Source: Vogesella sp. LIG4 (GTDB lineage Bacteria > Pseudomonadota > Gammaproteobacteria > Burkholderiales > Chromobacteriaceae). Taken from it: DNA of 64,000 bases. Under the pieces are notes generated by a model. The model did no database searches, was not told the DNA's origin, and worked only from the letters and a program-made list of their open reading frames with translations. Every line of letters starts with the position of its first letter. Position 1 is the stretch's first letter. The stretch spans positions 3,427,923 through 3,491,922 of the forward strand of contig NZ_LT607802.1 in NCBI RefSeq assembly GCF_900090205.1, in the 5' to 3' direction. Below are positions 2-64,000 of this stretch, one piece after another. A program made the position numbers and the translations under genes.

Positions 2-1141
2 CAGGCGCTGCGCATCGTGCTGCCGCAGGCCATGCGCAGCATCCTGCCCACCGCCTTCAACGACATCATCGGCCTGGCCAAGGGCACGTCCAACCTCTAC
101 ATCCTGGCGCTGCCGGAGCTGTTCTACACCATCCAGGTGATCTACCGCCGCAACCTGGAGGTGATTCCGCTGCTGATGGTGGCCACCGTGTGGTACCTGA
201 TCATCCTCACCGTGCTGTCCGCCATTCAGGTGCATATCGAACGCCATTACGCCCGCGGCGCGCTGCGCACCGTGGCTCCTGGTTTGCTGGGGGGCTGGTG
301 GGCGCGTCTGCGCCAGCCGGCCGCCGCGCCGGCGGCTGCGGCCAACCCTGGCGCGGCGCGGCAGCCGCTGCCGCGCATCCGTGGCGGCGCGGTAGCCATC
401 AATAAGGTGAGCAAGCAGTACGGCGCGCTCACGGTGCTGGACCAGGTATCGCTGGAGCTGGCACCCGGCAGCGTCACCGCCATCATCGGGCCGTCCGGCT
501 CCGGCAAATCCACCCTGCTGCGCAGCGTCAACCACCTGGAGCGCGTGGACAGCGGCTTCATCGCCATCGACGGCGAGCTGATCGGCTACCGCCAGCATGA
601 CGACGCGCTGCACGAGCTGAAGGAGCCGGAGATCCTGCGCAAGCGCGCCGAGGTCGGCATGGTGTTCCAGCATTTCAACCTGTTCCCGCACCTTACCGTG
701 CTGGAAAACATCATCGAGGCGCCGCAGGCGGTGCGCGGCCAGTCCCGCCAGGAGGCCGAGGCGCTGGCCCGCGAGCTGCTGACCCGCGTCGGCCTGGCGG
801 ACAAGGCCAGCGCCTACCCGCGCCAGCTGTCCGGCGGCCAGCAGCAGCGCGTCGCCATTGCCCGCGCACTGGCACTGAAACCCAAGGTACTGCTGTTCGA
901 CGAGCCCACCTCGGCACTGGACCCGGAACTGGTGGGCGAGGTGCTGGACGTGATCCGCGAGCTGGCCAGCAGCGGCGCCACCCTGCTGGTGGTGACGCAT
1001 GAAATCGGTTTTGCCCGCGAAGTGGCCGACAAGGTGGTGTTCATGGAACACGGGCGGGTACTGGAAACCGGCTCGCCGGCGCAGGTACTGGGGCAGCCGC
1101 GCCACGCCCGCACCCGCGAATTCCTCGCCAAGGTGCTGTAA
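2..1141 (+). CDS. Amino-acid ABC transporter, permease-ATPase fusion (5' truncated)
   Basis: The reading frame is open from the left edge, so the N-terminus is outside the window. The first ~80 residues seen are the end of a polar amino-acid permease (HisM/GlnP type): the loop containing GLAKGTSNLY and a final hydrophobic helix. An Ala/Pro-rich linker of about 40 residues follows, then a complete ABC ATPase with Walker A GPSGSGKST, signature LSGGQQQR, Walker B VLLFDEPTSALD and the H-loop THE. The ATPase half is like GlnQ/HisP. One polypeptide therefore carries the membrane and the energising part of an importer. The solute-binding protein follows 62 nt downstream. The substrate cannot be read from sequence. 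One copy of the dispersed 11-bp motif lies at 337-347, in the linker. Confidence 0.9.
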   Translation, partial: QALRIVLPQAMRSILPTAFNDIIGLAKGTSNLYILALPELFYTIQVIYRRNLEVIPLLMVATVWYLIILTVLSAIQVHIERHYARGALRTVAPGLLGGWWARLRQPAAAPAAAANPGAARQPLPRIRGGAVAINKVSKQYGALTVLDQVSLELAPGSVTAIIGPSGSGKSTLLRSVNHLERVDSGFIAIDGELIGYRQHDDALHELKEPEILRKRAEVGMVFQHFNLFPHLTVLENIIEAPQAVRGQSRQEAEALARELLTRVGLADKASAYPRQLSGGQQQRVAIARALALKPKVLLFDEPTSALDPELVGEVLDVIRELASSGATLLVVTHEIGFAREVADKVVFMEHGRVLETGSPAQVLGQPRHARTREFLAKVL

Positions 1142-1203
1142 CGCTTTCCCTCCGTGCGGCGGGTGTGCCCGCCGCCATCACACATCCACAAAAGGACTGC
1201 ATC

Positions 1204-2142
1204 ATGACTATTTCCCGCCCGCTCCGTGCCGCCGCCGGCACTGCCCTTGCCCTGGCTACCCTGGCACTGCCGGTAGCCGCCGCCGAGTTCAAGGTCGATC
1301 TCAGCCCGGAACAGCCCGGCCGCGTGCGCGCTGCCAAGGTGGCCGCCGCCATCAGGCAGATCCCCAAGGACGCGCATTTTGTGAAGGACGGCGTGCTGAC
1401 CGTGGCCATCAACGGCGGCCGCCTGCCGCTGGCCGCCTTCGCCACCGACACCCAGACCCTGGTGGGTTCGGACCCGGATATCGCCCAGCTGGTGGCCGAC
1501 AGCCTTGGCCGCAAGTTGGAAATCGTCAACGTGGCCTGGGCCGACTGGCCACTGGGGCTCAGCTCCGGCAAATACGACGCGGTGATCTCCAACGTCACCG
1601 TGACCGAGGCGCGCAAGGAGAAATTCGACTTCTCCACCTACCGCCAGGACAAGCTGGGCATCTATGTGAAGAGCACCGGCCCGGTCAAACAGATCCGCGA
1701 CCCCAAGGACATCGCCGGCCTGCGCGTGATCGTGGGCGCCAGCACCAACCAGGAGCAGATTCTGCTGCGCTGGAACCAGCAGAACGTGGCCGCCGGCCTG
1801 AAACCGGTGGAGGTGCAGTACTACGACGATGACGTGGTGCAGCGCCTGGCGATCCAGTCCGGCCGCGCCGATGCCTACCTCGGCCCCAACGCCATTGCCG
1901 CCTTCGAGGCCGCCAAGGATGGCAAGACCCGGCTGGCCGGCACCTTCTCCGGCGGCTGGCCGCTGAACGCCGACATCGCGGTAACCACCCGCAAGGGCAG
2001 CGGCCTCGCCGCGGCCATCACCACCGCCATCAACGTCCAGATCGGCAACGGCAACTACGCCAGGACGCTGAAGCGCTGGAACCTGGGTTCCGAGGCCATC
2101 ACCCAGTCGCAGACCAACCCGGCCGGCCTGCCCAAGAGCTGA
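1204..2142 (+). CDS. Amino-acid ABC transporter substrate-binding protein
   Basis: A 312-residue periplasmic solute-binding protein of the bacterial family 3 type. Residues 1-26 form a Sec signal peptide ending in an AAA-type cleavage region. The mature part has the family's DPDIAQLVADSLG and GKYDAVISNVTVT stretches. ATG 1204 is chosen over an earlier in-frame start at 1165 because AAAGGA (1191-1196) sits at RBS distance and the signal peptide begins exactly there. It is the partner of the permease-ATPase fusion upstream and would deliver substrate to it. An N-terminal extension of about 45 residues precedes the binding domain. The exact amino acid bound is unknown. Confidence 0.88.
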   Translation: MTISRPLRAAAGTALALATLALPVAAAEFKVDLSPEQPGRVRAAKVAAAIRQIPKDAHFVKDGVLTVAINGGRLPLAAFATDTQTLVGSDPDIAQLVADSLGRKLEIVNVAWADWPLGLSSGKYDAVISNVTVTEARKEKFDFSTYRQDKLGIYVKSTGPVKQIRDPKDIAGLRVIVGASTNQEQILLRWNQQNVAAGLKPVEVQYYDDDVVQRLAIQSGRADAYLGPNAIAAFEAAKDGKTRLAGTFSGGWPLNADIAVTTRKGSGLAAAITTAINVQIGNGNYARTLKRWNLGSEAITQSQTNPAGLPKS

Positions 2143-62411: not shown

Positions 62412-62558
62412 GGCAATCCTTTCAGAAACACCGGCACGGCGGGCGGCCGGTCAGGTTGGCGCGCATTGTAGCAGCCGGGGCCGATCAAGGCGAAGGCCGG
62501 CTAGCTGCATGCTACAATCCGCGCCTTACCGATTCACTACCAGCATTTTGCCCGCACC

Positions 62559-64000
62559 ATGGCCCTGATTACCGTAGAAAAAGCCTGCCTTGCCTTTGGT
62601 CACCACGCCCTGCTCGACCACGTGGATTTCGCGCTGGAAGGCGGCGAAGTGGTCGCCCTCATCGGGCGCAACGGCGCCGGCAAGTCCTCGCTGCTCAAGG
62701 CCATTGCCGGCGCGGTGAAACTGGACGACGGCCGCATCAACCAGCAGAACGATCTGCGCGTGGCCTATGTGCCACAGGAGCCGGTGTTCAGCGAAGGCCA
62801 CAGCGTGTTCGACGCCGTGGCCGAAGGCCTGGGCGACCTCAAGACCCTGATCGTCGACTACCACCACCTGACGCAGCAGCTGGCCGACCCTGCGGCCAAC
62901 CATGAGGCGATGATGGCGCGCATGACCGAGATCCAGCACCAGCTGGAAGCGCGCGACGGCTGGCAGTTCGATGCGCTGATCCGCTCCACCCTCAGCCACC
63001 TGGGGCTGGATGCCGACACCCAGGTCAGCGACCTGTCCGGCGGCTGGAAGAAACGCGTGGCACTGGCACGCGCGCTGGCCTCGCGCCCGGACGTGCTGCT
63101 GCTGGACGAACCCACCAACCACCTGGACATGAGCGCCATCGAGTGGCTGGAGGAACTGATCCGCAACTTTGCCGGCAGCGTGCTGCTGATCACCCACGAC
63201 CGCCGCTTCCTCGACAATGTCTGCACCCGCATCGTGGAGCTGGACCGCGGCCTGCTGCGCAGCTACCCCGGCAACTTCAGCGCCTACCAGGTGCGCAAGG
63301 CGGAGGAACTGGCAATCGAAGAGGAACAGAACCGCATCTTCGACAAGTTCCACGCCCAGGAAGAGGTGTGGATCCGCAAGGGCATCGAGGCACGCCGTAC
63401 CCGTAATGAAGGCCGCGTGCGCCGGCTGGAGGCGATCCGCCGCGAACGCAACGCGCGCCGCGAGCGCGTGGGCCAGGTGAACTTCCAGCTCGACGCCGGC
63501 GAGCGCTCCGGCAAGCTGATCGCCGAGCTGGAGCACGTCAGCAAGGCGTATGGCGACAAGGTGTTGATCCGCGACTTCACCACCCGCATCCTGCGCGGCG
63601 ACAAGATCGGCCTGATCGGCCCCAACGGCGCCGGCAAGACCACGCTGCTGAAGCTGATCCTGGCCGAGCTGCAGCCGGACAGCGGCACGGTAAAACAGGG
63701 CACCAAGCTGGAAGTGGCCTACTTCGACCAGTTCCGCACCCAGCTGGATGAAGAGGCCAGCGTGGCCGACATCATCAGCCAGGGCAACGATTACGTGGAA
63801 ATCGCCGGCCAGAAGAAGCACGTGATGAGCTATCTGGAGGACTTCCTGTTCTCGCCGCAGCGCGCGCGCAGCCCGGTGCGCTCGCTGTCCGGCGGCGAGC
63901 GCAACCGCCTGCTGCTGGCCCGGCTGTTCACCCGCCCGGCCAACGTACTGGTGCTGGACGAACCCACCAACGACCTGGATATCGACACCCTGGAGCTGCT
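62559..64000 (+). CDS. uup: ABC-F ATPase Uup-type (3' truncated)
   Basis: 480 residues visible; the gene runs off the right edge. ABC-F proteins act on ribosomes; no membrane domain. First ABC domain: Walker A GRNGAGKSSLLKAI, LSGGWKKRVALARAL, DEPTNHLDM. Linker with RKGIEARRTRNEGRVRRLEA, then the second domain: GPNGAGKTTLLKL, LSGGERNRLLLARL, DEPTNDLDI. The EARRTRNEGR linker is characteristic of Uup. ATG 62559 starts MALITVEKACLAFG; no strong ribosome site. Motif copy at 62891-62901. Confidence 0.92.
   Translation, partial: MALITVEKACLAFGHHALLDHVDFALEGGEVVALIGRNGAGKSSLLKAIAGAVKLDDGRINQQNDLRVAYVPQEPVFSEGHSVFDAVAEGLGDLKTLIVDYHHLTQQLADPAANHEAMMARMTEIQHQLEARDGWQFDALIRSTLSHLGLDADTQVSDLSGGWKKRVALARALASRPDVLLLDEPTNHLDMSAIEWLEELIRNFAGSVLLITHDRRFLDNVCTRIVELDRGLLRSYPGNFSAYQVRKAEELAIEEEQNRIFDKFHAQEEVWIRKGIEARRTRNEGRVRRLEAIRRERNARRERVGQVNFQLDAGERSGKLIAELEHVSKAYGDKVLIRDFTTRILRGDKIGLIGPNGAGKTTLLKLILAELQPDSGTVKQGTKLEVAYFDQFRTQLDEEASVADIISQGNDYVEIAGQKKHVMSYLEDFLFSPQRARSPVRSLSGGERNRLLLARLFTRPANVLVLDEPTNDLDIDTLEL

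Follow-up and report, generated by a model that had tools for sequence, protein, structure and literature searches.

The uptake signal sequence (USS) of the Pasteurellaceae marks self DNA for transformation as a frequent word without polarity, and its spelling differs from that of the word described here. In an excerpt of PMC12616744, PpdA/ComN is its predicted receptor. The DNA uptake sequence (DUS) of the Neisseriaceae has eight published dialects, all with a CTG core at positions +6 to +8 (excerpts of PMC3630211 and PMC12061091), which the latter terms strictly conserved; a Neisseriaceae 12-mer screen proposed possible extra dialects, every one with CTG (excerpt of PMC11316581). Here, we analyzed a 64-kb stretch of DNA (C1:3427923-3491922, hereafter the window) of a single-contig genome of 4,147,242 bases, the 4.15-Mb chromosome of Vogesella, a genus placed by taxonomy look-up in the family Chromobacteriaceae, order Neisseriales. 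Based on its abundance, distribution and accompanying genes, we propose that the 10-mer GTTGGCCGCA, often found within AAGGTTGGCCGCA, is with high probability the Vogesella DUS, a dialect belonging to a CCG-core family common to several Chromobacteriaceae genera. Our literature search, which covered full text for open-access articles, returned no report of a DUS in Vogesella or other Chromobacteriaceae.

Abundance in the window and the chromosome

GTTGGCCGCA is the commonest 10-mer of the window, with 45 copies against 0.43 expected, in agreement with the initial annotation, which had reported about 45 copies on both strands and likened the word to an uptake sequence. The mean spacing is 1,422 bases and the median 1,337, and the 11-mer GGTTGGCCGCA occurs 26 times, with 0.11 copies expected from shuffles. 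The whole chromosome holds 2,895 copies (1,458 forward and 1,437 reverse, about 0.7 per kb) versus 8 of the reversed word, a count far above expectation that gives the word the genome-wide, two-stranded over-representation of 10- to 12-mers by which a DUS is recognized.

Distribution across the Chromobacteriaceae and the Neisseriales

The window encodes an AccA that shares 93-95% identity with its counterparts in Vogesella aquatica, V. margarita and V. alkaliphila, and the DNA of this region is also nearest to Vogesella. All 13 genomes of the genus carry GTTGGCCGCA in 1,871 to 2,895 copies each, and the 48 genomes of nine sister genera contain at most 58. In a sample of the order (399 genomes), the word is high in six members of the genus and reaches at most 52 copies in the other 393. 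Among named loci, V. alkaliphila shows 13 copies in 21 kb, V. margarita 14 in 11 kb and V. aquatica one in 6 kb.

Sampled DNA searched without a preset word revealed sister words in five other genera, namely GTTGGCCGAA (AA) in four and GTTGGCCGAG (AG) in one. Such one- or two-letter variants are carried by 10 of the 48 sister-genus genomes: GTTGGCCGAA by eight genomes from five genera (2,168, 1,851, 1,368, 1,245, 1,104, 893, 579 and 183 copies) and GTTGGCCGAG by two (1,940 and 1,590 copies). Elsewhere among the 61 family genomes counted, GTTGGCCGAA does not exceed 78 copies, the two highest counts being those of the AG genomes, and GTTGGCCGAG does not exceed 165, a count reached in an AA genome and followed by one of 92. 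Within the order sample, GTTGGCCGAA is high in two genomes only, both Chromobacteriaceae. The count in relatives proposed in the initial annotation has yielded a genus-wide word with sister words in related genera, and the three words behave as lineage-specific dialects. As a positive control, the known DUS GCCGTCTGAA ranked top in two Neisseria loci, with 29 and 31 copies per 21 kb.

By DNA identity, genome G013 is Pseudogulbenkiania ferrooxidans 2002 (100% over 3,000 bases), G015 Crenobacter luteus, G422 Chromobacterium amazonense and G442 Paludibacterium purpuratum; G272 is near Aquitalea palustris (91%), G438 near Crenobacter intestini (94%) and G440 near Craterilacuibacter sinensis (92%). 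Further word-bearing genera are our g3, g5 and g10. P. ferrooxidans 2002, with its 1,104 copies of GTTGGCCGAA, shares a taxid with 'Lutiella nitroferrum 2002', which an excerpt of Frye et al. 2013 (PMC3630211) places among five genomes without obvious DUS. Table S1D of that paper, on over-represented 10-mers in L. nitroferrum 2002 and other genomes, may hold GTTGGCCGAA uninterpreted.

In the word-less genera, we found no other word in the DNA sampled from three Aquitalea-like genomes (200 kb), three Chromobacterium-genus genomes (260 kb), three Paludibacterium-genus genomes (200 kb, about 20 kb of it masked) and one g9 genome (100 kb); the other 25 word-less genomes with a ComP match were counted for the three known words only, which leaves room for a different or rare word. 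In the Aquitalea-like genus g6, G017 is the only one of 10 genomes with GTTGGCCGAA (1,368 copies), and the nine others have a ComP match and no known word, a pattern that suggests word loss or regain. Two Paludibacterium-genus genomes, G442 and G444, show slight excesses of GTTGGCCGAG (92 and 85 copies vs 21 and 17 for reversed controls) and of GTTGGCCGAA (62 and 45 vs 13 and 11), possibly remnants of a lost dialect. In G021 of genus g10 (L047-L050), the palindrome TGCTTAAGCA is enriched beside the uptake word (9 copies vs 0.15 in 80 kb).

Spelling of the word and comparison with the neisserial dialects

Over 303 sites, the profile reads A 57%, A 54%, G 57%, G 97%, TTGGCCGCA, A or T, and G 58%, with nothing strong further out; the AA-extended form suggested earlier is therefore real as a preference. 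The exact word occurs 293 times in 464 kb versus 6.2 expected, and its 30 single-letter variants together 92 times versus about 136 expected (summed). The sole clear variant excess is +9A (11 vs 3.6), with small excesses of +1C (9 vs 5.0) and +10G (12 vs 8.4). The CTG-core form, variant +7T, is not enriched in these 464 kb (3 vs 3.5).

The dialect strings were taken from excerpts of PMC12061091, PMC10715097 and PMC3868556, and the comparison covered seven of the eight dialects; wadDUS, with its inserted letter, was left out. The AA 12-mer AGGTTGGCCGAA matches nine of 12 letters of simDUS (AGGCTGCCTGAA) and nine of 12 of the mucosa form (AGGTCGTCTGAA), in both cases best without any shift and in the same orientation. 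When both strands, five shifts and the seven dialects were allowed, about 1% of 60,000 trials each with random, shuffled and window 12-mers reached at least 9/12. In the Vogesella and AA forms, only the G at +5 and the C at +7 are absent from all seven dialects; the Crenobacter form adds a G at +10. All three words have CCG as their core (+6 to +8). That the word lacks the CTG core, as first noted, is thus correct; since CCG occupies the core in register, we prefer to see in the word a relative of the neisserial DUS that has diverged, rather than something unrelated. Because CTG is lacking, we file it as a CCG-core dialect family in the Chromobacteriaceae.

ComP and competence genes

Based on comparisons with PDB sequences, a ComP profile and folds, the Vogesella genome encodes a ComP ortholog (161.8 bits with the profile). 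Its prepilin N-terminus, seen by alignment, and its ComP-like head sequence and fold place it with the ComP minor pilins, so that a receptor gene is present in a word-bearing genome. A second fold comparison ranks 5hz7 first. The genes for PilQ, ComEA and ComEC are also present, ComP and competence genes being among those that the initial annotation had proposed to check. Of the three Pfam ComP_DUS matches in this genome, the two strongest on that family, C1:2153936 and C1:4146282, were rejected as ComP, as the ComP profile gives them just 60.8 and 59.3 bits vs 161.8 for the third.

All 23 word-bearing genomes have a ComP match, as have 57 of the 61 family genomes, the latter count depending on a cut that we chose between E 2.7e-24 and 1.7e-19. 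A ComP tree was built for 49 of these 57 genomes, eight Chromobacterium-genus sequences being left out, and its deep order is unsure because of long branches.

Placement and turnover of the copies

Placement was studied in 864 kb, comprising the window and 40 further stretches (41 in all), with 549 copies (264 forward and 285 reverse). In replichores drawn from GC skew, with boundaries set by eye, 313 copies are co-oriented with the leading strand and 236 oppose it. The strong strand polarity that, according to the initial annotation, would have pointed to another role was thus not observed, and the excess is partly expected from the surplus of G and T in the word. In the 404 kb with usable gene calls, 38.5% of the copies are non-coding versus 11.4% of the bases; these figures come from 18 of 21 stretches, L018, L020 and L022 having been dropped because the simple gene caller fails in low-GC stretches. 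Paired copies are mostly non-coding (52 of 58), and single copies mostly lie inside called genes (170 of 228). Neighbours at most 40 bases apart are always inverted (43 inverted and 0 direct in 864 kb, 19 of the inverted ones abutting), and they mostly lie in intergenic, terminator-like positions.

The only word-free stretch of the 41 is L018 (G000:C1:621001-641000, 20 kb), a BREX-type (bacteriophage exclusion) island with genes for PglZ, BrxB, a BrxC-like protein, a recombinase and RepB. Neisserial mobile elements are likewise detected by atypical DUS distribution, as described in an excerpt of PMC7371117. Another low-GC stretch, L022 (G000:C1:1449001-1469000, GC 0.526), with NAPRTase and ribose-phosphate pyrophosphokinase-like genes, has only two words and may have been acquired recently.

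Sites turn over while the word persists. In a comparison with another Vogesella genome (37.6 kb, 79% identity), 11 of 24 and 11 of 23 copies are retained, versus 18% of all 10-mers, and in the named loci tried first, five from Vogesella, seven of 20 window-copy comparisons were retained. At the aligned sites, none of the window copies is retained in Pseudogulbenkiania (0/6), Crenobacter (0/6) or Chromobacterium (0/7), and the local dialect stands at none of these sites either.

In the window, 34 copies lie in called genes. The two protein readings described initially, Leu-Ala-Ala (LAA) and Ala-Ala-Asn (AAN), account for 11 and nine of these, VGR for nine and other readings for five; the four copies in tilS (34108, 34655, 34729 and 35008) and the three in pmbA (40870, 41264 and 41873) were also found as described. 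Of four inverted pairs or near-pairs forming terminator hairpins, as first annotated, we recovered three exact pairs within 40 bp (32303/32313, 46616/46632 and 50581/50597), degenerate near-pairs being outside our search. All three fold stably, as judged by minimum free energy (MFE), and a T-run directly follows the first only. The copies are listed below; lines without further remark are exact copies of GTTGGCCGCA of 10 bases each, and the identities of tilS and pmbA were assigned separately.

337..346, minus, copy of GTTGGCCGCA in open reading frame 2-1141
2217..2226, minus, intergenic copy
2564..2573, plus, copy
3620..3629, minus, intergenic copy
4381..4390, minus, copy
6821..6830, minus, copy
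8150..8159, plus, intergenic copy
9646..9655, minus, copy
11111..11120, plus, copy
13613..13622, plus, copy
16184..16193, plus, copy
16777..16786, plus, copy
18308..18317, plus, copy
20427..20436, minus, copy
21350..21359, plus, copy
22695..22704, plus, copy
24607..24616, minus, copy
27409..27418, minus, copy
32303..32322 (32303-32312 plus, 32313-32322 minus), abutting inverted pair, hairpin then T-run, MFE -19.2 kcal/mol, z -3.66
34108..34117, minus, copy in tilS
34655..34664, plus, copy in tilS
34729..34738, minus, copy in tilS
35008..35017, plus, copy in tilS
37084..37093, plus, copy
38593..38602, minus, copy
39160..39169, minus, copy
40870..40879, plus, copy in pmbA
41264..41273, minus, copy in pmbA
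41873..41882, minus, copy in pmbA
43916..43925, minus, copy
46616..46641 (46616-46625 minus, 46632-46641 plus), inverted pair between convergent genes, MFE -25.7 kcal/mol, z -5.43
49070..49079, minus, copy
50581..50606 (50581-50590 minus, 50597-50606 plus), intergenic inverted pair, MFE -23.3 kcal/mol, z -4.48
51386..51395, plus, copy
52177..52186, minus, intergenic copy
53126..53135, minus, copy
56783..56792, plus, copy
57263..57272, minus, intergenic copy
60149..60158, minus, copy
60926..60935, plus, copy
61911..61920, minus, copy
62891..62900, minus, copy

The window also contains a cobalamin riboswitch (RF00174, 133.6 bits) at 9282-9460 and, at 36416-36767, a group of four tRNA genes, apparently a tRNA pair duplicated in tandem (two at 75.4 bits and two at 70.5 bits).

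A proposed model of biased uptake

The word behaves as a DUS and, taken functionally, very probably is one. Directly observed are its abundance, near non-polarity, lineage variants, a word-free, foreign-looking island, partial site conservation, and the ComP, PilQ, ComEA and ComEC genes. The uptake reading of the initial annotation came through both the genome-wide count and the test of replication polarity, and it is newly supported by the ComP ortholog, the sister words, the word-less BREX island and the inverted-only close neighbours. In the model that we propose, the minor pilin ComP would bind free word-bearing DNA at the pilus surface, pilus retraction would pull this DNA through PilQ, and ComEA would hand it to ComEC, through which one strand would enter the cell; recombination into the chromosome would then restore or spread the word. 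Copies arisen by mutation would spread and persist in coding and non-coding DNA on both strands, because word-bearing fragments would be taken up preferentially, and oppositely oriented pairs may double as transcription terminators. Spread by biased uptake would make the full 10-mer common and its one-letter variants not, give one spelling throughout Vogesella and others in its sister genera, and let sites turn over as the word stays, with an acquired island lacking it.

Several observations weigh against this interpretation. ComP matches also occur in 34 genomes of the Chromobacterium, Aquitalea-like and Paludibacterium genera, in which none of the three words is abundant, so that ComP alone is no predictor of the word. 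The Vogesella ComP is divergent: with 24 bits it falls below the Pfam ComP_DUS cut-off of 27.3, two other pilins of the genome outscore it on that family, and in the second fold comparison PilV and PilX come ahead of the ComP entries 2m3k and 2nba, which rank fifth and seventh. With the same ComP profile, E-values of paralogous pilins go down to 1.6e-37, which makes the orthology of the weakest ComP matches, chiefly those of Paludibacterium, uncertain. Matches to the ComEC and ComEA families are likewise seen in 12 and nine of 14 control genomes, five each over the cut-off. The Vogesella 12-mer matches the Neisseria DUS at only eight of 12 letters, as 6-8% of random words do, and the CTG of every published dialect is absent. 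The leading-strand excess is weak yet significant (57%, p 0.001). Additionally, the island evidence is one case, since just one of the 41 stretches has no copy, and low GC alone is not decisive, as L034 (GC 0.52), with even lower GC than L018, holds 12 copies. Finally, it is from genes, counts and patterns that we infer ComP binding, uptake bias, competence and termination.

Alternative explanations

The most serious alternative, which we nevertheless consider rather unlikely, is that the words are uptake sequences that arose independently in the Chromobacteriaceae after the split, with an old ComP family, a separately gained preference and a chance resemblance to DUS. The similarity is indeed modest (about 1% chance for the AA word, 6-8% for the Vogesella word), the register was picked after the words were seen, and Chromobacterium, Paludibacterium and nine of 10 Aquitalea-like genomes have a ComP match and none of the three words. 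Nevertheless, no shift or change of strand is needed for the best match, the layout is the same (a tight 10-mer with a looser 5' A-G, and the same variable letter, A or C, at +9), and at 10 of their 12 positions the Vogesella and AA words carry a letter known from some Neisseriaceae dialect. A common origin with the neisserial word is likely; it is favoured by the receptor and the register match, and the support from the spelling, that match included, is modest. We lean, with some reserve, towards a ComP-DUS system that predates the split of Neisseriaceae and Chromobacteriaceae, in which CTG would be only the Neisseriaceae state, the ComP of the sister family would read CCG, and Chromobacterium, Paludibacterium and most Aquitalea-like genomes would have kept ComP and lost, or never had, the word. 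If so, nature would have provided a set of receptors that differ in specificity or have none.

Explanations unrelated to uptake fare worse. A binding site for a nucleoid, methylation or regulatory protein is compatible with the sequence, whose central GGCC is a possible methylation target; it is very improbable, as the 10-mer is non-palindromic and over-represented rather than avoided, copies stand inside genes on both strands, and the spelling varies across a ComP-bearing family. We give hardly any credence to a polar chromosome-segregation or recombination word, like the FtsK orienting polar sequences (KOPS) or Chi. High density, shortness and the weak leading-strand excess (313 to 236) would suit such a word, whereas the polarity of KOPS along replichores is strong, far above the 57% co-orientation found for 549 copies in 864 kb; a genus-restricted spelling and inverted-only close pairs would also be unexpected. 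As a main role, it was rejected. Equally far-fetched is a dispersed repeat, an element like the repetitive extragenic palindromes (REP) or a terminator module copied round the genome: the 43 inverted pairs within 40 bp and the mostly non-coding paired copies (52/58) would fit, but most copies are single, 170 of 228 singles lie inside called genes, and no strongly conserved flank extends past about four bases on either side of the 303 sites, on which ground this candidate was also discarded.

Significance and comparison with known systems

A CCG-core family with ComP relatives in a sister family would push the origin of DUS back beyond the Neisseria family and would demonstrate that the DUS core can change. 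It would also provide approximately 57 candidate ComP proteins, from genomes that have a word and from others that lack one, for studying how ComP reads DNA, which a 2025 modelling paper calls enigmatic. Our results suggest natural competence, at present or in the recent past, in Vogesella, Pseudogulbenkiania and Crenobacter, and the word could be used as an in silico marker of foreign islands in their genomes.

Compared with known systems, the word differs from KOPS in its weak strand bias (57%), and it shares with the USS of the Pasteurellaceae the character of an abundant, non-polar self word, with a different spelling and a different predicted receptor (PpdA/ComN). The Vogesella ComP resembles the ComP of Neisseria (PDB 2m3k, 2nba and 5hz7) in sequence family and fold, and has diverged from it. 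The closest relative is the DUS of the Neisseriaceae. The Vogesella word, itself characterized by sequence analysis only, differs from it by CCG instead of CTG at +6 to +8, by G at +5, by its density of about 0.7 per kb and by its Chromobacteriaceae hosts, and resembles it as a word of 10-12 letters in thousands of copies, on both strands and in coding and intergenic DNA, with inverted terminator-like pairs, lineage dialects, a looser 5' AG extension and a ComP ortholog.

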